DNA of 38,490 bases from assembly GCA_022563535.1 (NCBI GenBank), contig JADFNE010000041.1:1-38490 (forward strand), read 5' to 3'. Positions 22,550 to 33,107 of the stretch are shown in pieces. The translations under genes and the position numbers were made by a program. The stretch is from Myxococcales bacterium (lineage in GTDB: Bacteria > Myxococcota_A > UBA9160 > UBA4427). Positions within the stretch are counted from its first letter, which is position 1. The number at the start of each line of letters is the position of its first letter. A model generated the notes under the pieces. The model was given only the letters and a program-made list of their open reading frames with translations, was not told the origin of the DNA and did not search any database.

Positions 22550-23320
22550 CTAGATGCCGGAGCCGCCCTCTTCCTCGCCGACGTGGATCCCGCACTCGCG
22601 CGTGTCGTCATTTTCCCACCACCAGCGGCCGGCGCGCGGATCTTCGCCCAACTTGACCGCCCGGGTACAGGGCTCACAGCCCACCGAGGGGTAGTTCTGT
22701 GCGTGCAAGCGATTGACGGGGACTTGGTTTTCCTCGACGTACTGCCACACCTCGTCGGCGGTCCAATCGGCCAGGGGATTGAGTTTGACGATGCCCCCAG
22801 CAGCTTCGTCGAACTCGACTTTGCGCGTACCCGCGCGGTTGGCGTTCTGGTCCCTTCGCAGGCCCGAGACGTATGCGTCGAAGTCCCCGAGATAGCGCCG
22901 CAACGGCTCGACCTTGCGCAACCGACAGCAGAGCTTGCGATTCTCCAGAGATTCGTAGAAAAGGTTGTGTCCCTTATCCGCGACCATCGCTTCGATGTCC
23001 TGGCTTTGGGGAAACACCACCTCGACTCGCTTGTCGTAGCGATCGCGCACGCGGTCGACCAGGTCGTAGGTCGCGGGGTGCAGGCGCCCGGTGTCCAACA
23101 TGAAGACCCGCGACGTGTTGTCGAGCTTGTGCATCATGTCGAGCAACACCATGCCCTCGGGCCCACCGAAGCTGGCTGAGAGCGCCAACCTGGGATGAAA
23201 ATTCTTGATCGCCCAAGTAAGGATTTCTTGGGGACCCTGGGCTTCCATCTGGTCTTCGGTCACGACGCGAACAACGTCGTTACTGAAGGTTTTTGCCAGC
23301 TTTAAGCTCGGGGCAGTCAC
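22550..23320 (-). CDS. cysH: Assimilatory APS reductase (CysH, [4Fe-4S] type)
   Basis: 256 residues from GTG 23320, with GAGGAG about 10 nt upstream. It reduces adenylyl sulfate to sulfite and AMP in cysteine synthesis. Seen: SASFGGPEGMVLLDMM (PP-loop), FMLDTGRLHPATY, LCCRLRKVEPLRR, YVSGLRRDQ, LNPLADWTADEVW, GCEPCTR and the C-terminal ECGIH with the catalytic Cys. The CC plus CxxC cysteines bind a [4Fe-4S] cluster, which marks the APS-using class rather than E. coli PAPS reductase. No cysDN or sulfite-reductase gene adjoins it. Confidence 0.94.
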   Translation of the reverse strand: MTAPSLKLAKTFSNDVVRVVTEDQMEAQGPQEILTWAIKNFHPRLALSASFGGPEGMVLLDMMHKLDNTSRVFMLDTGRLHPATYDLVDRVRDRYDKRVEVVFPQSQDIEAMVADKGHNLFYESLENRKLCCRLRKVEPLRRYLGDFDAYVSGLRRDQNANRAGTRKVEFDEAAGGIVKLNPLADWTADEVWQYVEENQVPVNRLHAQNYPSVGCEPCTRAVKLGEDPRAGRWWWENDDTRECGIHVGEEEGGSGI

Positions 23321-23444
23321 TCGGGTCTCGCTCCTCACGGGCGGTGTATCGGATGCAGCAAAGGGTAGGCACAGAATTATGAAGCACAATTCCTGATTCG
23401 GCTACTGTTTAAAATTCTTAAATTACATACTAATTAACCGTATT
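23321..23444 (-). promoter_or_regulatory. AT-rich upstream region of cysH
   Basis: This 124-nt gap is far more AT-rich than the window. On the minus strand a CATAAT hexamer (a 5/6 match to a -10 box) lies within the short dyad GAATT-GTGCTTCAT-AATTC, about 65 nt before the cysH start. It could be a promoter with an operator, but no clear -35 or known regulator site is visible. Confidence 0.35.
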
Positions 23445-23777: not shown

Positions 23778-24302
23778 TCAGCCCGGAACTTCGAGTGATT
23801 CAGGCCAGACTCGAAGCGCCGAACTGTCGGGCAACCTGCGGGCGAGTTCGATCAGCGAGACACCTTCGCGCGGATGGACGTAATCGGGAGCGAGATCGCA
23901 AAGGGGTTCGAGTACGAACGCGCGCTCGTGTAGCCGCGGATGAGGGATCGAGAGCCCTGCCTGCTCGATGCAGTCCTCGCCGTAAAAGAGAAGATCCAGA
24001 TCGAGGATCCGCGGCCCCCAGCGTTCAACATCGCCGCTGCGATCGCGGCCCGCTTTCAGTTCGATCGCGAGCAGCCCGTCGAGCAGTGATTGTGGCGAGC
24101 ACTCGCATCTCAGCCGGGCCGCGGCATTGAGGTACGGCCCCTGTACACCGGGGCCGACCGCGTCGGTCTCGTAGACCCTCGAAACCGCTTCGACCCACAC
24201 CTGGGAAAGCTCGGCCATGGACTGCAGCGCAAAGCGCAGGCTGGCTTCGCGGTCTCCGAGATTGGAACCGAGTCCGATATAGGCCTCGACATGCTTCGCC
24301 AC
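23778..24302 (-). CDS. folK: FolK, hydroxymethyldihydropterin pyrophosphokinase
   Basis: 174 residues from GTG 24302; the frame opens earlier but FolK proteins begin at this point. It transfers pyrophosphate from ATP to 6-hydroxymethyl-7,8-dihydropterin in folate synthesis. Seen: AYIGLGSNLGDRE, VSRVYETDAVGPGVQGPYLNAA, LLAIELKAGRDRSGDVERWGPRILDLDLLFYG (with the metal-binding DLDLL) and IPHPRLHERAFVLEPL. All key motifs are intact. It is divergent from the aminotransferase operon, 116 nt between starts, and leads the folK-thiamine-binding-type pair. Confidence 0.95.
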   Translation of the reverse strand: MAKHVEAYIGLGSNLGDREASLRFALQSMAELSQVWVEAVSRVYETDAVGPGVQGPYLNAAARLRCECSPQSLLDGLLAIELKAGRDRSGDVERWGPRILDLDLLFYGEDCIEQAGLSIPHPRLHERAFVLEPLCDLAPDYVHPREGVSLIELARRLPDSSALRVWPESLEVPG

Positions 24303-24418
24303 TGACGCTGTGCCTCGCCGGCCGGCGCGGACCTCACCGCAACGGCGCAATTGTTGAGCCAAACGGAATTGACCACCCAGTCCCGGGGAAACCGCCGGCG
24401 CGGAGCTACCATCCCCGC

Positions 24419-25690
24419 GTGTCGCAGCCCACCCTCGAACCCGAGCTAGTCACTAAGGTACCCGGCCCGGGTTCCCTCGCCCTCGCCAAACGCCTGGCGG
24501 CCGCAGAATCGCGCAATGTCACCTGCTCGGACCCCAAACCGATTTTCTGGGAGCGCGCCGCGGGCGCGAACGTATGGGATGTCGACGGAAACCGGTACGT
24601 TGATCTGACCGCCGCATTTGGGGTCGCGAATGTCGGCCACGCGCATCCAAAGGTCGTCGCCGCCATCGCCGATCAGGCCAAACGCCTGCTCCACGGGATG
24701 GGAGACGTTCACCCCCCCGCGGTCAAGGTCGATCTCCTCGAGGCGCTGGTGGGCCGCTATCCCGGCGGCGTTCCAGCGCGCGGGGTGCTGAGTTCCTCGG
24801 GCTCCGACGCGATCGAAACTGCGATCAAGACCGCCATGTTGGCAACCGGTCGGCCCGGGATTCTCGCATTCGAAGGGGCGTATCACGGTCTCGCCCTGGG
24901 CGTCCTCGACGCCACCTCGCGCGAGGACTTTCGCAATCCGTTTGCAGAGCGCTTGCCGGATCTCACCGTGTTCGCAGCGTTCGACGATCTCGATGCCGCC
25001 CACCGCGCAATTCGCGACACAGAGATTCCGATCGGCGCCGTGTTGGTCGAACCCATTCAGGGTCGCGGCGGCGAACGCGTTCCAGCACCCGGTTACCTCA
25101 AAGGCCTGTTGGACTTGTGCCGCGCCAACGGCATGTTGCTGATCGCCGACGAAATTTATACGGGGTTTGGCAGAACCGGTCGTTGGTTCGCCTGTGAGCA
25201 CGAAGATGTAGTGCCCGATCTGCTGTGCGTCGGCAAAGGCATGGCTTCAGGCATGCCCATCTCCGCTTGCCTCGGGCGGCGCGAGACGATGGACGCCTGG
25301 CCTGTATCTCGGGGCGAGGCGTTGCACACGCAGACGTTCATCGGGCATCCCACCGGTTGCGCCGCGGCGCTCGCCTGCATCGAAGTGCTGGAAAGCGAGG
25401 GCTATGTAGAACGAGCCGCGAGTCTGGGCGCCCGGGCCCTCGACCATCTTGCGGAGCACGCCGCCTCGCGAGCTGAAATCGTCGAAATTCGGGGCCGGGG
25501 TCTGATGATCGGCATCGAAGTTGTTGCGTCGCCCGGCGCTGCGGTGGCATGTCGGCGGGCGCTGGCCAGGGGAGTCATCGCGCTGCCCTCCGGAAGTCGA
25601 GGGGAAGTCGTCTCCGTGACCCCTCCGCTGTGCATCGACGAAGCAGCGTTCCTCGCCGCCCTCGACGTGCTGGTCGAGAGTCTTTCGTGA
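24419..25690 (+). CDS. Class III PLP aminotransferase, first gene of a LuxE/LuxC operon
   Basis: 423 residues from GTG 24419. Fold type I class III: NVWDVDGNRYVDLTAAFGVANVGHAHPKV, SSGSDAIETAIKTAMLATGR, FEGAYHGLALG, the PLP-binding VLVEPIQGRGGE and LLIADEIYTGFGRTG, and catalytic Lys in CVGKGMASGMPIS. Such enzymes transaminate omega-amino acids, amines or aldehydes (GABA, ornithine, diaminobutyrate) or isomerise glutamate semialdehyde. Its TGA overlaps the LuxE-like GTG by 4 nt. This invites the idea that it aminates the aldehyde formed by the next two enzymes. Substrate unknown. Confidence 0.88.
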   Translation: MSQPTLEPELVTKVPGPGSLALAKRLAAAESRNVTCSDPKPIFWERAAGANVWDVDGNRYVDLTAAFGVANVGHAHPKVVAAIADQAKRLLHGMGDVHPPAVKVDLLEALVGRYPGGVPARGVLSSSGSDAIETAIKTAMLATGRPGILAFEGAYHGLALGVLDATSREDFRNPFAERLPDLTVFAAFDDLDAAHRAIRDTEIPIGAVLVEPIQGRGGERVPAPGYLKGLLDLCRANGMLLIADEIYTGFGRTGRWFACEHEDVVPDLLCVGKGMASGMPISACLGRRETMDAWPVSRGEALHTQTFIGHPTGCAAALACIEVLESEGYVERAASLGARALDHLAEHAASRAEIVEIRGRGLMIGIEVVASPGAAVACRRALARGVIALPSGSRGEVVSVTPPLCIDEAAFLAALDVLVESLS

Positions 25691-26880
25691 GCCCCGTGCG
25701 CGAAGCTTGCGACCCGCGTCGGCGCGAACTCGACGCCAAGATTCTTGGCTGGATGCGGGAGTCCACATGGCAAGACGACGAAGCGCGCTTCGATGCCATG
25801 GCATGTGAGCTGTTTGCTTTTCAGTTCGAGCACTGTCTCCCCTACGCGCGTTTCTGCGAAGCTCGCGGTGTGACACCGGGCAAGCTTTCGCACTGGAGCG
25901 AAATCCCGGCCGTCCCCTCCACAGCCTTCAAGGAGGCGAGGCTTCACAGTTTTGACCCAGCGTCCACTGCAAAGGTCTTTCACACGAGCGGCACGACCAG
26001 CGCGCGCCCCGGCGCACTCTACCTCGACACCCTGGAACTCTACGAAGCGTCTCTTCTGTCGAGCATCCGACGTTTTGTCTTTCCCGATTTGGGCGTTGGA
26101 CCTGCAGCCGAAGCGCCGAGGATGTCCATTCGAATTCTCGCGAGCGATCCCGCCGAAGCGAAAGACTCGTCGCTTTCACATATGTTTGGCGTTGTACTTC
26201 GCGAACTCGGCGAATCGAGCAACAGTGGATACGACAGTCACCACGGTGTTCTCGATGCGACGTCGTTGATTGACCGGATGCTTCGGCTCGGCGATTCCGC
26301 GACGAGCAGCGAGGACCGGCGTCCCGTTGCATTGTGCGGAACCTCCTTCGCCTTTGTCCATCTGCTCGAAGCCTTTGAACGCAGTGCCCATTCCGGCGCA
26401 AAGCTCAACCTGCCCCGAGGCTCTCGCATCATGGAGACCGGCGGCTTCAAGGGTCGCAGTCGCGAGGTTCCGCGCGACCAGCTTTACGCCTCACTCGAAC
26501 AACGGCTGGGCATCCCGCCCGACCATATTGTCAACCAATACGGCATGACGGAGTTGGGAAGCCAGTTCTACGATTCGTTGCTCTTCGAATCCCAGAGCAT
26601 GGACACTCCCGGTCCGCGTCGAAAACTCGGGCCACCATGGGTGCGGGTCCGGCTAATCGATCCTGAAACCGGAGAAAATGCAAAGCCCGGTGCGGCGGGC
26701 ATGATCGTGATTCACGACCTTGCCAACACCGGGAGCGTCGCGGCACTTCAGACCGCCGATCTAGGACGCACTGTTGAGGGCGCGCCAGACGGTTTCGAGG
26801 TGTTGGGCCGGGCGGCAGATGAAGAAGAACGCGGCTGTTCGATCGCGGCAGACGAGTTGTGGCACGAGGCCCAACAATGA
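25687..26880 (+). CDS. LuxE-like acyl-protein synthetase
   Basis: 397 residues from GTG 25687; the frame opens earlier inside the aminotransferase gene but those residues are frame noise. LuxE activates a carboxylic acid with ATP to an acyl-AMP and holds the acyl group on a Cys before handing it to LuxC. Seen: VFHTSGTTSARPGA near residues 98-111 (P-loop of the adenylating fold), METGGFKGRSREV near 249-261, NQYGMTELGSQFYDS near 283-297, and near the C-terminus RGCSIAADEL, whose Cys is the candidate acyl carrier. It overlaps LuxC by ATGA (26877-26880), and the aminotransferase by GTGA. Confidence 0.9.
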   Translation: MSPVREACDPRRRELDAKILGWMRESTWQDDEARFDAMACELFAFQFEHCLPYARFCEARGVTPGKLSHWSEIPAVPSTAFKEARLHSFDPASTAKVFHTSGTTSARPGALYLDTLELYEASLLSSIRRFVFPDLGVGPAAEAPRMSIRILASDPAEAKDSSLSHMFGVVLRELGESSNSGYDSHHGVLDATSLIDRMLRLGDSATSSEDRRPVALCGTSFAFVHLLEAFERSAHSGAKLNLPRGSRIMETGGFKGRSREVPRDQLYASLEQRLGIPPDHIVNQYGMTELGSQFYDSLLFESQSMDTPGPRRKLGPPWVRVRLIDPETGENAKPGAAGMIVIHDLANTGSVAALQTADLGRTVEGAPDGFEVLGRAADEEERGCSIAADELWHEAQQ

Positions 26881-28148
26881 ACTCCGCCGAGCGCATCGCT
26901 TCGACCCTCGAGAGCTTGAGCCAGGCGCGCGGACGACTGCGCGAACGCACGGACGCCGAGATCCTGGGCGGGCTCGGGAACGTCCTCGAACGCTTTCGGG
27001 ATGCCTCTTCTACTTGTCGCAAAGAACTCGAGGCAAAGCTCCCCGCAGCCAGTGGCTTTGCCCCCGCAACCGTCCGCGCGGGACTCGAACTGGGTTTCGA
27101 ACCCTGGACGGGTGAATCCCTCGAACGCCTCGCGAACGCTGAACTGCACCCGCACGCCCAAGCGGGAACATGGCTTGCACAAGGCTACCCGGTGACGAGC
27201 GTACTGCTCGCGGGCTCAATCCCCATGCCGAGCGTACTCTCGATTTTGCTCCCCCTCGTCCTGCGTTCCGCAGTCTTGTGCAAGCCCGCTTCCCGCGACG
27301 CCATCACTCCGTCTCTGGTGGTGGATGCCATTCGCGAGGTCGACCCGTTGCTGGCTGACTGCGTGGGGATCGTGCCCTTCGAAAAGGACAACACCGAGGC
27401 GAACCGCGCGTTCTACTCGACTCCGTGTGTCGTCGCGACTGGCTCGGACGAAACGATCTCCGAGGTAGATCGTTACCTCGCGCCCCAGCAGCGGCGCGTA
27501 TTCTACGGTCACCGCGTTTCCATCGCCTTGATCGATTTGTCTCGACTCGGCGACACCGGGTTCACTGAACTCGCCGGCAATCTCGCCATGGACATTGCGC
27601 TTTGGGATCAGCTGGGCTGCCTGTCTCCCGTTGCCTTCTACCTTGTGGGCGGAGCGGACGGAGACCCGGAAAACTTTGCACAAGCACTCGGGGTCGCGCT
27701 TGCGAGCGCGCAAGAGCGTTTGCCCCGGGGAGCGGTCGCGCCCGAAACCGCGGCAAGGATCGCGCGCGAACGGACCGCGGCCGAAATGCGCGCAGCCCTC
27801 GATGGCAAAACACGGGTCATTGCCAGTGCCGGCACGGAATGGACCGTGGTGCTCGAAAGCGACACTCAGCTGCGCAGCGCGCCGCTCAATCGTTTCATCC
27901 GCCTGGTCCCTCTCGAAAGCCGCGACATGCTGCCCACGACCCTCACCAGCTTGGCGCCGCACCTGGCCGGTGTTGCACTCGCGGGCTTCGAGCCGGATCG
28001 CGAAGACGTGATCCGACAGCTTTTCGAAGCCGGCGCCTCGCGGGTCTGCGCACCAGGGCGCTTGCAGGCACCGCCGATCGATTGGCGGCGCGACAACCAA
28101 GCGCTGCTTCTGGGCATGGCGATGTTGGGCAACCGCGAGGCGCTCTAG
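26877..28148 (+). CDS. LuxC-like acyl-CoA/acyl-enzyme reductase
   Basis: 423 residues from ATG 26877, overlapping the LuxE stop. LuxC reduces the activated acyl group to an aldehyde with NADPH. Seen: YPVTSVLLAGSIPMPSVLSILLPLVLRSAVLCKPASRD near residues 101-138, ATGSDETISEVDRYL near 183-197, and IALWDQLGCLSPVAFYL near 240-256 with the probable nucleophile Cys in GCLSP. It ends with no following gene on its strand; the stop overlaps the convergent GGCT gene by 4 nt. There is no luxA, luxB or luxD nearby, so the aldehyde is not used for light production at this locus. Confidence 0.9.
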   Translation: MNSAERIASTLESLSQARGRLRERTDAEILGGLGNVLERFRDASSTCRKELEAKLPAASGFAPATVRAGLELGFEPWTGESLERLANAELHPHAQAGTWLAQGYPVTSVLLAGSIPMPSVLSILLPLVLRSAVLCKPASRDAITPSLVVDAIREVDPLLADCVGIVPFEKDNTEANRAFYSTPCVVATGSDETISEVDRYLAPQQRRVFYGHRVSIALIDLSRLGDTGFTELAGNLAMDIALWDQLGCLSPVAFYLVGGADGDPENFAQALGVALASAQERLPRGAVAPETAARIARERTAAEMRAALDGKTRVIASAGTEWTVVLESDTQLRSAPLNRFIRLVPLESRDMLPTTLTSLAPHLAGVALAGFEPDREDVIRQLFEAGASRVCAPGRLQAPPIDWRRDNQALLLGMAMLGNREAL

Positions 28149-28564
28149 TAGTCCGCCATCCAATTGCGTGTCTGCTTCAAGAAATTTTCGAGATCCTCAG
28201 CGACAAACTTGGCTTCGTCCCATACGTCATCGATCAATAGATCCCGGAGAATGTCGCTGATGACGTAGACCGAAGCCGGCACGAGGGAATCGTCTGCCAA
28301 CTCTACGTAGAGTGTGCGACGTTCGTAGTCGTCGGCTTCGAAGTAGTCGAGGCGCGCCAGGGCGTCTTCGTCCAGATCAAAATAGATTCGCCCCCGGGTC
28401 GAGCGGGTTTCGGCTTCTGCAACCCCGGGATAAACCCGTCCCTCGAGCATGAACCTCTCGAAGCCGTGCAGGCAAGCTTCGGCGTGACGAAACAACCGAC
28501 CCGTCACCGTCTGCATGACGATCGGCACGACGAGGGAGCCATAGACAAACAGGTGACTGCTCAC
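28145..28564 (-). CDS. Gamma-glutamylcyclotransferase-like (GGCT/AIG2) protein
   Basis: 139 residues from GTG 28564, overlapping the HAD gene's TGA by 4 nt. The start SSHLFVYGSLVVPIVMQ is the family's ligand loop; FERFMLEGRVYPGVAE and LARLDYFEADDYERR follow, the last holding the catalytic Glu candidate. These enzymes cyclise gamma-glutamyl amines to 5-oxoproline. The C-terminal acidic tail (DDVWDEAKFVAEDLENF) is unremarkable. Substrate unknown. It is probably translated with the HAD hydrolase as a small two-gene unit. Confidence 0.85.
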   Translation of the reverse strand: MSSHLFVYGSLVVPIVMQTVTGRLFRHAEACLHGFERFMLEGRVYPGVAEAETRSTRGRIYFDLDEDALARLDYFEADDYERRTLYVELADDSLVPASVYVISDILRDLLIDDVWDEAKFVAEDLENFLKQTRNWMADY

Positions 28565-29253
28565 GACTCTGCCGCGCTGCACTCGATCTCTGTGTTGTTG
28601 TTGATGTCGTCGTTGATGTCGTTTTTGTCGTGCTCGAGCGCCCCAAGCTCCACCAACGCCTGCCTTACATCTTCTGGTGACTGGACATGCACCGCCCACA
28701 TCCCTGCGGAGCGAGCACCTTCCACATTCTCGAGTGTGTCGTCGAAGAAAAGTATCGCCGACAAAGGGAGACCGATCGCCTCAGCCACGGCATCGAACGC
28801 TGCGCGCTCGGGCTTCCTCAGCCCCAATTCGGATGACACAAAGATCCCGTCAAACCTCGCCATGACGCGAGGATACATCGCCATCCAGGCGGCCTGATGC
28901 GTCGGATTCGAATTCGTGAAGAGATAACACGGCAGCTGTGCCCTCGCGATTGCGATGTCGTTTGTCGACCGCGTGATCTCACCGACGTAAATCGCGTTCC
29001 AGCCATTGGAAATTTCTTCGTCACTGGCTTCGAGTTCGAGCGTGTTGCGAAGATGCTCGAAGTATTCGGAAGCGTCAATTTCTGCACGCTCATGCCGTTC
29101 GTAGGCGGCATCCATCGAGAAGCGACTGCGAATCTCTTCAATCGACAAGTGAGACTGCCTTGCCCAACTCTGAATCGCCAAGTCAAAGTCGATGTCGATT
29201 ACAACGCCGCCCATGTCGAACAACAAAGCCTCGACCTTGCCTGGCGGTATCAT
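28561..29253 (-). CDS. HAD-superfamily hydrolase
   Basis: 230 residues from ATG 29253; GTG 29280 upstream would add 9. Motif I is DMGGVVIDIDFD near residues 13-24, which has Met-Gly in place of the usual D-x-D spacing (LLFDMGGV fits the D-x-G-G-V class); TNSNPT (motif II) near 111, KPERAAF (motif III Lys) and FFDDTLENVEGA (motif IV). It resembles the haloacid-dehalogenase-type phosphatases that carry DMGGV. A C-terminal Asp/Asn-rich tail (KNDINDDINNNTEIE) is odd. Coupled to the GGCT gene by a GTGA overlap; substrate unknown. Confidence 0.85.
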   Translation of the reverse strand: MIPPGKVEALLFDMGGVVIDIDFDLAIQSWARQSHLSIEEIRSRFSMDAAYERHERAEIDASEYFEHLRNTLELEASDEEISNGWNAIYVGEITRSTNDIAIARAQLPCYLFTNSNPTHQAAWMAMYPRVMARFDGIFVSSELGLRKPERAAFDAVAEAIGLPLSAILFFDDTLENVEGARSAGMWAVHVQSPEDVRQALVELGALEHDKNDINDDINNNTEIECSAAES

Positions 29254-29296
29254 GATCCCTCTTTCCTTTGGCTCAGACACAGGACGGTAGAAGCAC

Positions 29297-29698
29297 CTAG
29301 CTTGGATCTAGCCTGAAAAAGTACCTTGGCGGAAAACCGGTCAATAATCGGAACGGCACACCAAGGCTGTTGTCGGCGTCTACGCGATCGTGCTCTTCCC
29401 CAGTGACAGGCACTGCGAGATAGTTTTTCTTCACGCCATCCACCGTGGCTTGCACATTCGCATTCTTTAACGCCTGCTTGTACCAGGCTCGGGGCCAGTG
29501 GTTGGCGGCTACGTACAGCAGGCCATTGCTCTCGAGGCGAGACAGGACTCGGTCGTTCGAGGTCCCATCCTCAGCCGTAGTGGTAATGACGAGTGTCGAC
29601 TCGTCCGCTGGTTGGAAGAACCCGATCAACGATTCGAAGGTAAAAACGATTCCGATATAGACGACGAGCGAGATTACGATCCGCTTTACGGCTTTCAC
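29297..29698 (-). CDS. Nitroreductase/deazaflavin-dependent (DUF385-like) protein with TM anchor
   Basis: 133 residues from GTG 29698, GGGAG about 8 nt upstream. One N-terminal membrane helix (IVISLVVYIGIVFTFESLIGFF) is followed by a split-barrel flavin fold: LITTTAEDGTSNDRVLSRLESNGLLYVAANHWPRAWYKQALKNANVQATVDGVKK, then YLAVPVTGEEHDRVDADNSLG and GFPPRYFFRLDP. Proteins of this type are annotated as F420 (deazaflavin)-dependent nitroreductases or quinone reductases. Together with the LLM-class enzyme it hints that this organism uses F420. Function unproven. Confidence 0.85.
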   Translation of the reverse strand: MKAVKRIVISLVVYIGIVFTFESLIGFFQPADESTLVITTTAEDGTSNDRVLSRLESNGLLYVAANHWPRAWYKQALKNANVQATVDGVKKNYLAVPVTGEEHDRVDADNSLGVPFRLLTGFPPRYFFRLDPS

Positions 29699-29784
29699 AA
29701 TAGAACTCCCAGGAGGCACGCTCCTCCAATTAACTGAGCGTCGAAGGTACTGAATTGAATGAATGTAAGGAGTCTCGATTGACC

Positions 29785-30957
29785 TCACAACTCCCGAATC
29801 AACTCGATGGCGTCCAGATCGACAACGGCCTTGCTGGCCCGGGTCAGGCCCGCGATGACAACCTTCTCTGGCTGAAAGTTGCTCGGCGCAGTCACGATAG
29901 CGGCAATCCAGGCGTAGACACTCTGCAAGCGGTACTGCCGCCATGCGGTATCAAAGTCAAACGAAACACCAAAACGCTGCAACGTCGCCAAGTAGTGCTC
30001 GATGAGTTGTTTTTGATGAGCGAGGCGCAACTCCTCGCTCATCGAGTTGATCAAGAAGTAGGCGACGTCCCGCATGCCCTGGCCGCGCTGACTGACCTGC
30101 CAGTCCAGCAGCCCCACCTCTCCGTCTTGGAAGTACATGTTGCCCAGGTGCGCATCACCGTGGATCAAGGTGCGGGGCTCCTGGGCCCACTGTTCTTCGA
30201 GTTGCAGATAATTCTTCATCAGGTGCGGGATGACATTAATGATGTCCGAGGACAAGGCGTGACCGAACTTCTTGCAGGCGATCGGAACGCTCAGCTGCCT
30301 TACCAGATTCAACAAGCGAAAATCGCGGTTGGTTTCGAAGCAATTCACCCAGGCCAGGTCCGTATCGAAGCGTTGGCTCTGCCAGAACTTTGCGTGCATC
30401 CGCGCCAAAGTGGTGACGACGCTCGTCGCCTCTTCGAAAGTACACTTTGTAGTGAGGTCCCGGAATTGGCAGCCTTTGTCTGTCAGATCTTCGAGCAGCA
30501 TCACGTAGTCATTGGAGTCGCCCTCGCAGTAGACGACCTGAGGTGACTTCACTGGCAGGTCGCGTCTGATATGTCTGTAGAACGAGACCTCGTTGCCGCC
30601 GAGGTTGAACAGCACGCCAAATAGTTTGGCGCCGAAATCGCGCGGTGTAGATTTGATGAACAGCGAGGCAGGTCCGGGCAGTCCTCGCAGATGCTCGGCG
30701 TAGCGTATGTGCAAGCGCGATCGACTTGCCGTACCCGAATGAACAGCTTCAATGCTGGCACTGTCGATGAGTTCTGGATCGAGATCCAGCCACTCGGCAA
30801 GCCAAGCAACCGTCGTGAACTCATGCAGCCGATGCGACGGCTTTCTGAACAGACGCCCCAACCACACCCGAAGACAAGCGCCCAGCAGCCGGGGCAACAG
30901 GATCAGGGTATCGCGAACGATCAGAACCGCTGAAACGAAGAGAGACGAGCTCTTCAT
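29785..30957 (-). CDS. Ecdysteroid-kinase/aminoglycoside-phosphotransferase-like protein
   Basis: 390 residues from ATG 30957. The kinase-like fold has a glycine-poor N-lobe with IKSTP (Lys), an intermediate block (EVSFYRHIRRDLPVKSPQVVYCEGD), VMLLEDLTDKG (hinge), and the catalytic LIHGDAHLGNMYF (HxDxxxxN) with LLDWQVSQRGQGMRDVAYFL (metal-binding D). This is the EcKinase/CHKov group, which phosphorylates small hydroxylated molecules. An N-terminal hydrophobic stretch (SLFVSAVLIVRDTLILLPRLLG) may be a membrane anchor. ATG overlaps the PyrE stop (ATGA), so they are translationally coupled. Confidence 0.87.
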   Translation of the reverse strand: MKSSSLFVSAVLIVRDTLILLPRLLGACLRVWLGRLFRKPSHRLHEFTTVAWLAEWLDLDPELIDSASIEAVHSGTASRSRLHIRYAEHLRGLPGPASLFIKSTPRDFGAKLFGVLFNLGGNEVSFYRHIRRDLPVKSPQVVYCEGDSNDYVMLLEDLTDKGCQFRDLTTKCTFEEATSVVTTLARMHAKFWQSQRFDTDLAWVNCFETNRDFRLLNLVRQLSVPIACKKFGHALSSDIINVIPHLMKNYLQLEEQWAQEPRTLIHGDAHLGNMYFQDGEVGLLDWQVSQRGQGMRDVAYFLINSMSEELRLAHQKQLIEHYLATLQRFGVSFDFDTAWRQYRLQSVYAWIAAIVTAPSNFQPEKVVIAGLTRASKAVVDLDAIELIREL

Positions 30958-31538
30958 GTCCCCAAATCGGGGAGGTCTAGGTCTGCGCGGCTGAACAACG
31001 GCTCGAGCACCAGACCGCGCTCGGCGAATGCCTCGATCGCGCCCTCTCCCCGATCGACCAGGCAGATTACCCGGACAACTTTGCCCCCGCTGGCTTTCAC
31101 GATCTCCACTGCGTCCAAGGTCGAGCCGCCGGTGGTCGTAGTGTCTTCTACTAGCGCCACGGTTTGTCCTTGCTTGAATCCGCCTTCGATCTGTCGCCCC
31201 ATGCCGTGCTTCTTGGTTTCTTTGCGAACGAAAAAGCCCAAGAGATCTTCGTAACCCGGAGTGATTGCCGCAGCGGCGAGCACGGCGCTCACCAGAGGTA
31301 CCGCGCCCACAGCCATCCCCCCCACGGCTTCGACCGGTGTGCCGCGTCCAAGCAGGTCGAGCACCAGGCGTCCCGCGAGAGCGACCCCCTGAGGTCGCAT
31401 CAATGTCTGGCGCAAGTCGAGGTAGAAGTTGCTCTCGCGTCCGCTGGCTAGCGTGACCTGCTTTTTCTCAAAAGATACTTCCATGATGAGCGCAAGGAGT
31501 TGTTCGCGCGCGTCATTCAGACTCAGTTGCCCTGACAT
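30954..31538 (-). CDS. pyrE: Orotate phosphoribosyltransferase
   Basis: 194 residues. ATG 31538 is chosen because GGAGAG lies 7 nt upstream; ATG 31544 is too close to it. It converts orotate and PRPP to orotidine 5'-phosphate. Seen: TLASGRESNFYLDLRQTL, GGMAVGAVPLVSAV, GFFVRKETKKHGMGRQIEG, and the PRPP loop VALVEDTTTTGGSTLDAV. It is followed by the kinase gene, and preceded by an acyl-CoA dehydrogenase 39 nt away on the same strand. PyrF, the next pathway enzyme, is 1.7 kb further on the same strand. Confidence 0.95.
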   Translation of the reverse strand: MSGQLSLNDAREQLLALIMEVSFEKKQVTLASGRESNFYLDLRQTLMRPQGVALAGRLVLDLLGRGTPVEAVGGMAVGAVPLVSAVLAAAAITPGYEDLLGFFVRKETKKHGMGRQIEGGFKQGQTVALVEDTTTTGGSTLDAVEIVKASGGKVVRVICLVDRGEGAIEAFAERGLVLEPLFSRADLDLPDLGT

Positions 31539-31577
31539 TGTCATTCTCTCCAAAATAAAAAATTGGGACGGGTCACG

Positions 31578-32756
31578 CTAATGCTTGCGAATCCCCAGCG
31601 CGTACTCGGCGATCAAGCGATTGTGCAGTTCACTCGTTCCCTCGCCAAACTCCAAACTCTTGGCCTCCATGAGCAAGCGACCAATCTCGTATTCCTCAGT
31701 ACAGCTATAGCCGCCGAACACCTGCATGCCGTCGAGCGCATTCTGCACTGCGGCCTGGCTTGCATTGAGCTTGGCGAGTGAGCTTTCCAGGGAGCAGCGA
31801 CCAATACCCGCGTCCTTCATCCGGCCCAGTCGGTAGACCAACAGCCTCGCCTGCTCGGTGCGGCTCACCATATCTGCGATCTTCTGCTGAATCATTTGAA
31901 ATTCACCGATGCGCTGGCCAAAGGCTTCGCGTTCCATTGCATAGGGAAGCGCCAGGTCGAGACACCGCTGGGCCTGACCCACGCAGCGCGCCGCCACCGA
32001 GAAGCGGCCCATGTCGAGTGCCCCGCCCAAAATTGGAAAGCCGCCGCCTTCTTCCCCCAGCAAGGCTTCGTCCGGCACGAACGCGTCTTCCATGTGAACC
32101 TCGGCGAGATTGTCTCGCTTGAGAGTACGCATGGGAAAGTCGGAGATCGTGATGCCATCGCTGGTGTGCGGGTCGATCAAGAAGGCCGTCACGCCCTTGT
32201 GCTTCTTCGATAGATCGAGACTCGCCACGGTGAAGAACAGCCCCGCGTGGGCGGCGTGGGAGATGAAGACCTTGGTGCCCGTCAGGCGATATCCGCCGTC
32301 GACTTTCTCGGCCACCATCTTCAGGTTGCCCAGATCCGTTCCGCCACCGGGCTCGGTCAGGAGTGCCGAGCAGAGCGTTTCGCCCGCGGCAATACCCGGG
32401 AGCCAACGCTGCTTCTGTTCTTCGCTGCCGAAATTGAGAATTGAACTCGCGGCCAGGGAGTTCGCCACCGAAACCGCCGAAGCCACCACCCAGTCGATGC
32501 GGGCGAGTTCTTCGCAGATCACTCCATAGGACACCACGTCTGAGAACGAACCCCCGTACTTCTCGGGAATCAACGGACCCATCAAGCCCAGGGGAACGAG
32601 CTTTTGAATCAAATCGAGCGGGTACTTTTCTTGCCGCTCATACTCTTCTACGTGGGGTTGGATCTCTCTTTCGGCAAATTCCTTGACGAACTGGCGGACC
32701 TGGCGCTGATCGTCGGTCAGGTCGAAATTTGACATGCGCTCTAGGACTGCACTCAT
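31578..32756 (-). CDS. Acyl-CoA dehydrogenase
   Basis: 392 residues from ATG 32756, GGAG 6 nt upstream. It oxidises acyl-CoA to 2-enoyl-CoA with FAD. Seen: FAEREIQPHVEEYERQEKYP, PEKYGGSFSDVVSYGV, ALLTEPGGGTDLG (flavin-contacting), VFISHAAHAGLFFTVAS, MRTLKRDNLAEVHMEDAFVPD, ALDMGRFSVAARCVGQAQR, REAFGQRIGEFQMIQQKIADM, and FGEGTSELH at the catalytic Glu region. Full length. Physiological chain length is unknown; it is the lead gene of a minus-strand run with pyrE and the kinase. Confidence 0.94.
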   Translation of the reverse strand: MSAVLERMSNFDLTDDQRQVRQFVKEFAEREIQPHVEEYERQEKYPLDLIQKLVPLGLMGPLIPEKYGGSFSDVVSYGVICEELARIDWVVASAVSVANSLAASSILNFGSEEQKQRWLPGIAAGETLCSALLTEPGGGTDLGNLKMVAEKVDGGYRLTGTKVFISHAAHAGLFFTVASLDLSKKHKGVTAFLIDPHTSDGITISDFPMRTLKRDNLAEVHMEDAFVPDEALLGEEGGGFPILGGALDMGRFSVAARCVGQAQRCLDLALPYAMEREAFGQRIGEFQMIQQKIADMVSRTEQARLLVYRLGRMKDAGIGRCSLESSLAKLNASQAAVQNALDGMQVFGGYSCTEEYEIGRLLMEAKSLEFGEGTSELHNRLIAEYALGIRKH

Positions 32757-32984
32757 CGAGTCTCCGGGGCCGGGCGGCCAACCTGCGGTCGGCGAGGGGC
32801 AAGCGGTTGCGGGTCGGATCACGGGTCACTTTAGCCTGCATTTCCCGCCAGTTCCGCCGCTCTCTCCCCAAATCGAGGACGAAAACCTCCTTGGGCCGTT
32901 CGCTCTGGTGGTCCGGTGCGGGTGGGCTAAGCTGCGCCTCCATTCCAGCGCGGCCGATCCACATCCGGCCGCTGTGAGGCAGTC

Positions 32985-33107
32985 ATGAAGAAGGGCAAGA
33001 ACAACCGCAATCGCAACAAGTCCTCCCGCTACCGCGCCAAGCTGAAGGCAAAGCACCAGCGCGCCCGCAAGCGGGTTTCTCCGGACGGCCGCAAGTACCA
33101 CCGCTGA
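32985..33107 (+). CDS. Very basic 40-aa protein
   Basis: ATG 32985 follows GTGAGG by about 5 nt, a strong ribosome binding site; the stop TGA is at 33105-33107. The 40 residues include 9 Lys and 9 Arg, one Asp, and no Cys or hydrophobic stretch: it starts MKKGKNNRNRNKSSRYRAKL and ends in GRKYHR. It is too short to be caught by a length filter. It looks like an RNA- or DNA-binding microprotein, perhaps a ribosome-associated peptide; I do not recognise a specific family. Divergent from the acyl-CoA dehydrogenase, 228 nt upstream. Confidence 0.65.
   Translation: MKKGKNNRNRNKSSRYRAKLKAKHQRARKRVSPDGRKYHR

Follow-up and report, generated by a model that had tools for sequence, protein, structure and literature searches.

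What do the acid-activating and aldehyde-forming enzymes of the lux system do where an aminotransferase rather than a luciferase is encoded next to them? This question is raised by three genes in a contig of a Myxococcales bacterium, analyzed here over a stretch of 38,490 nucleotides ("the window") that belongs to an assembly of 4.63 Mb in 147 contigs. At the family level, LuxE uses ATP to activate an acid and then bears the acyl group on a cysteine, LuxC accepts the acyl on a cysteine of its own and reduces it to the aldehyde, and class III aminotransferases turn aldehydes into amines. Natural-product clusters and engineered enzyme cascades offer known examples of acids converted to amines via the aldehyde. 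We consider it probable (about 0.68) that the trio is a translationally coupled module that forms a primary amine from the matching carboxylic acid.

A stand-alone operon with lux-type genes

Pfam and NCBIfam gave the same family calls for all three genes (Table 1). The aminotransferase (AT3 from here on) scored 331.6 bits against its Pfam family, and LuxE and LuxC, with 65.9 and 155.3 bits, clearly exceeded the Pfam cut-offs of 24.9 (gathering) and 21, so that both belong to their families. The preliminary description had reported three genes coupled by GTGA and ATGA overlaps, and direct reading of the plus strand between 24419 and 28148 confirmed it. On the opposite strand, the cysH and folK genes precede the trio and genes for a GGCT-fold protein and a HAD hydrolase follow it, so that the trio forms a stand-alone transcription unit. 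Scans of the locus with consensus promoters and terminators gave no match above the shuffled expectation. The absence of luciferase, also reported before, holds for the flanking genes scanned in the window, with no luxA, luxB or luxD among them, and the trio is thus not part of a lux operon. The scores against the luminescence-specific families are far below their cut-offs, both for LuxE (NF052244, 49.8 bits versus 550) and for LuxC (NF052251, 45 bits versus 750).

Table 1. Features of the locus, with positions in the window
Feature	Position	Strand	Remarks
AT3, PLP-dependent class III aminotransferase, 423 aa	24419..25690	+	GTG start, TGA stop; PF00202
LuxE-type acyl-protein synthetase (ANL/AMP-binding), 397 aa	25687..26880	+	GTG start within GTGA; PF04443
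LuxC-type acyl-thioester reductase, 423 aa	26877..28148	+	ATG start within ATGA; PF05893
AT3/LuxE stop-start overlap GTGA	25687..25690	+	Direct sequence reading
LuxE/LuxC stop-start overlap ATGA	26877..26880	+	Direct sequence reading
folK (HPPK), divergent neighbor kept in the order	23781..24362	-	Pfam/NCBIfam, synteny
cysH (APS/PAPS reductase)	22553..23389	-	Syntenic in 26/42 sequences compared

Conservation within the order and class

The three genes are contiguous, in the order AT3-LuxE-LuxC, at 38 of the 40 loci from the same taxonomic order. Of the two exceptions, one is truncated by the end of its contig. In genome G030, the second, the AT3-LuxE pair is intact at 2.32 Mb, with LuxC at 2.89 Mb. 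Of the 38 orthologous loci, 32 offer the 4-nt stop-start overlap for AT3/LuxE and 21 offer it for LuxE/LuxC; these overlaps, together with the gene order kept throughout the order, are beyond chance. Relatives of LuxE were found in 87 of the 91 genomes of the class and relatives of LuxC in 60 of the 61 genomes searched, and almost every genome of the class carries the trio, even small ones of ~2 Mb.

Within the order, the trio is typically flanked at one end by the folK and cysH genes and at the opposite end by an Rrf2-SUF iron-sulfur operon. We considered a functional tie to folK, cysH or the SUF operon and rejected it, since this synteny is limited to the order, with different genes elsewhere, and is best read as location only. 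The folK gene is a marker of the ancestral location and is not thought to be a member of the pathway. In the window itself (28145-33000), the place of the Rrf2-SUF operon typical of the order (compare L045, L056 and L070) is taken by the genes for the GGCT and HAD proteins, an EcKL-type kinase and an acyl-CoA dehydrogenase. A search of named genomes with back-translated patterns matched a single locus, 98% identical. It lies in JADFOF010000145.1 (L071), whose LuxC has this level of identity to that of the window; the record reads "Planctomycetota bacterium," but its relatives are Myxococcota, and the label looks wrong.

Conservation across the phylum Myxococcota

Among 237 genomes of the phylum, LuxE relatives were found in 202 and AT3 in at least 171, a lower bound given that no more than seven candidates per genome were scored (tblastn on the fetched loci found AT3 in G097 and G126). 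LuxE was present in 170 of the 171 genomes with AT3, and AT3 appeared in only one of the 35 genomes that lack LuxE, a co-occurrence (Fisher p 1e-21) whose significance is inflated by shared ancestry. This nested profile, with LuxE at times without AT3 and AT3 almost never without LuxE, fits an aminotransferase that uses the aldehyde produced by LuxE/LuxC. The genes also stay together physically. Outside the order (rest of the class and phylum), AT3 adjoins LuxE at 27 of 40 loci, and LuxC was also detected at 19 of these 27. Outside the class, 48 of the 56 genomes for which both genes were listed have them adjacent and on one strand, judged by best placements. The neighbors vary outside the order, which marks the trio, and AT3-LuxE especially, as the conserved unit; no recurrent linked tailoring genes were found at these loci. 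Conservation of the trio in other genomes, on which the preliminary description had made its proposal depend, thus extends over the order and in part over the phylum.

At 55 loci, the pairwise identities of AT3, LuxE and LuxC correlate with one another (0.91-0.93), as expected of vertical co-inheritance. The median pairwise identity is 37% for LuxC versus 55% for AT3, and our single-sequence search did not detect LuxC beside some of the AT3-LuxE pairs outside the order. Two of the eight genomes with non-adjacent genes (G212 and G264) have AT3 beside a second, divergent LuxE. Each carries two LuxE copies, one by AT3 and another paired with LuxC elsewhere (L134 and L138 versus L105 and L110), which suggests a duplication followed by a division of labor. 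In Bradymonadales, LuxE, mostly with LuxC, is located near dnaN/recF or a tRNA U5-methyltransferase-like gene (L091, L092, L116 and L125), in genomes without any AT3 ortholog. The occurrence of LuxE/LuxC without AT3, notably in this group, indicates that the aldehyde may have other fates.

Catalytic residues of LuxE and LuxC

We aligned both proteins with the solved LuxC-LuxE complex (7xc6) as reference for the catalytic cysteines. The acyl acceptor of LuxE, C384, aligns with the Cys of the GCS motif in chain E and is invariant in all 80 sequences. SG (101-102), E289, D358 and R375 are invariant residues of LuxE too. For LuxC, the catalytic C248 aligns with the Cys in DQQACFS of chain A and is invariant in 68 of 68. 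The same pair of cysteines serves the luxCDE fatty acid reductase of luminous bacteria. The differences from that system are the aminotransferase, found in place of a neighboring LuxD or luciferase, and the distance from the NCBIfam LuxE and LuxC families given above.

An aminotransferase of its own clade

The PLP residues K273, D244 and T306 are invariant in the 65 AT3 orthologs compared, as befits a class III aminotransferase. The best similarities in both NCBIfam and the PDB are to GABA aminotransferases, but AT3 falls below every NCBIfam equivalog cut-off listed. Moreover, the three residues R141, E211 and R398 of Escherichia coli GabT are replaced in 65 of 65 orthologs, by L/M/V, by an invariant Arg and by S/Q/A/G/T/V, respectively (L158, R216 and S399 in the window). 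AT3 is therefore not a GABA, acetylornithine or ornithine aminotransferase by these features, and these compounds are unlikely substrates. The restriction of AT3 to a GABA- or glutamate-semialdehyde-type substrate, named beforehand as the outcome that would speak against an amine-forming route, is contradicted by these replacements. In a tree with 22 other class III aminotransferases, AT3 forms a separate clade with a support of 1.0, and every member checked has the YHGL/GRGG/no-Arg signature. The pattern is absent from 13 class III paralogs encoded in the same genome and from control proteins. The closest non-orthologs elsewhere (L140-L142) keep Arg/Glu/Arg, and so do three homologs checked on plasmids, save for one change of R141 to T; the best plasmid homolog reaches 41% identity. 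PatA/YgjG shares with AT3 the FRxPF stretch and a Phe at position 67. Judging from the residues, R216 may hold the carboxylate of the donor, and the tail of the acceptor would be neutral or hydrophobic.

Proposed pathway and known systems

In the pathway that we propose, LuxE would adenylate the acid with ATP and keep the acyl group on C384, from where it would move to C248 of LuxC, and LuxC would reduce it to the aldehyde at the expense of NAD(P)H. AT3 would then transaminate this aldehyde with an amino acid as donor, yielding the primary amine. We infer the direction, the order of the steps and the aldehyde as the substrate of AT3, and the catalytic residues do not by themselves pin down the acid that enters. 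The acid-aldehyde-amine reading of the preliminary description is thus supported in kind by synteny, co-occurrence and residues, with direction and product being the interpretive part. The fatty amine that it suggested is one of several possible products.

There are precedents for this chemistry. TamA/TamH, from the tambjamine pathway of Pseudoalteromonas tunicata, have been shown experimentally to convert fatty acids into amines via aldehydes with L-Glu as donor (PMC9594044). As proposed here, the acid is activated, the thioester is reduced to an aldehyde and a class III aminotransferase makes the primary amine. However, in TamA an adenylation part is fused to an ACP, and in TamH the transaminase to an AAR-type reductase, whereas the trio consists of separate genes of LuxE and LuxC types, with neither an ACP nor a natural-product cluster. 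PigE, from prodigiosin biosynthesis, has likewise been shown by experiment to couple thioester reduction to transamination (PMC8341465), also by a thioester reductase and a class III aminotransferase acting on the resulting aldehyde, but within a single fusion with an AAR-like reductase. Only the aminotransferase part of the PigE family (NF053554) matches AT3, with 256 bits versus a cut-off of 850, and single-polypeptide fusions of the TamH/PigE type were not found at our locus, where the genes are separate and the reductase is of LuxC type. A further relative is a plasmid cassette with LuxE up to ~40% identical and coupled to LuxC (LuxE-LuxC-SsuABC-like-SDR in Azospirillum and Priestia, LuxE-LuxC-SDR in Pantoea), which differs by the SDR after LuxC, by the importer in the first two and by having no aminotransferase. 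In these plasmids (L072-L074), the SsuABC/taurine-like ABC importer of Azospirillum and Priestia is located between LuxC and the SDR, and the cassette probably reduces an imported acid to the alcohol.

A literature search for a LuxE-LuxC-aminotransferase operon found no description. By analogy, the chemistry would follow the logic of TamA/TamH and PigE, and what would be new are the different activating and reducing enzymes and their presence as a widespread chromosomal module. A broader proposal, to which we give slightly less than even odds, is that we are dealing with an undescribed pathway, broadly conserved in Myxococcota. In it, carboxylate reduction by LuxE/LuxC would be combined with a dedicated omega-transaminase whose arginine has been relocated, and the product would be a conserved primary amine not yet identified in these bacteria, whether an amino-lipid, an alkyl or aryl amine, or a diamine formed independently of decarboxylases. 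A chromosomal version found phylum-wide implies a conserved amine product, so far unnamed. The trio would also provide a compact natural cascade from carboxylate to amine without a carrier protein, and the three-gene set is directly testable, including that of the cultured Sandaracinus amylolyticus, which we take to be one of the carriers. The supply of beta-alanine in place of PanD was considered as well and rejected. PanD was not detected in the genome of the window and is present in 24 of 31 trio-bearing relatives, so that, as a rule, the trio is no substitute for it.

Alternative readings

The enzymes could serve different substrates, with the aldehyde or alcohol from LuxE/LuxC destined for some other purpose (e.g., lipid), AT3 using another compound and the three genes sharing no more than their regulation. 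The LuxE/LuxC genes without AT3 in Bradymonadales and others, and the pairs of Pantoea, Azospirillum and Priestia that accompany an SDR instead, agree with this. Yet AT3 without LuxE is limited to a single genome, their adjacency has persisted over phylum-level divergence and the residues for the carboxylate of GABA or ornithine have been lost from AT3, all of which makes this explanation unlikely. The pathway might also run backwards as amine catabolism, with AT3 converting an amine to the aldehyde, LuxC oxidizing it to an acyl thioester and LuxE releasing or transferring the acyl group. Class III aminotransferases and aldehyde dehydrogenase-like enzymes are reversible, and the features shared with PatA/YgjG are those of a catabolic putrescine enzyme. 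However, the known roles of LuxE are those of an ATP-consuming activator, catabolic operons usually finish with a plain aldehyde dehydrogenase and no transporter is linked to the trio in the order. Biosynthesis is also better suited to a near-universal presence in the class that includes the smallest genomes mentioned, and we regard the catabolic direction as rather improbable. The simplest possibility, an ordinary GABA, ornithine or glutamate-semialdehyde aminotransferase that is next to lux-like genes by chance, could invoke the similarity to GABA aminotransferases, but it is already contradicted by the equivalog scores, the replaced residues and the conserved adjacency and co-occurrence with LuxE. 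Besides, the genome of the window holds closer relatives of ArgD and GabT (47% and 46% identical to those of E. coli), and the chances of this explanation are negligible.

As for the product, a decarboxylase-independent route to diamines or polyamines, from an omega-amino acid such as GABA through the aminoaldehyde to putrescine, has some appeal in a group whose order seems to be without canonical polyamine biosynthesis (21 genomes sampled among G000-G037). None of these 21, taken from the window's own genome, its family and its order, has AdoMet decarboxylase or a fold-I ornithine/lysine/arginine decarboxylase, and in 20 of them pyruvoyl arginine decarboxylase was absent too. The features in common with PatA would also fit. 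Nevertheless, some bacteria do live without such polyamine genes, and an invariant R216 in the pocket would probably disfavor a cationic aminoaldehyde, so we consider this route very improbable. The fold-III decarboxylases of the window's genome are one LysA and one LysA-like protein, neither of which reaches the cut-off of ODC, SpeA or NspC. The LysA-like protein (L143, G000:C76) has a score well under the LysA cut-off.
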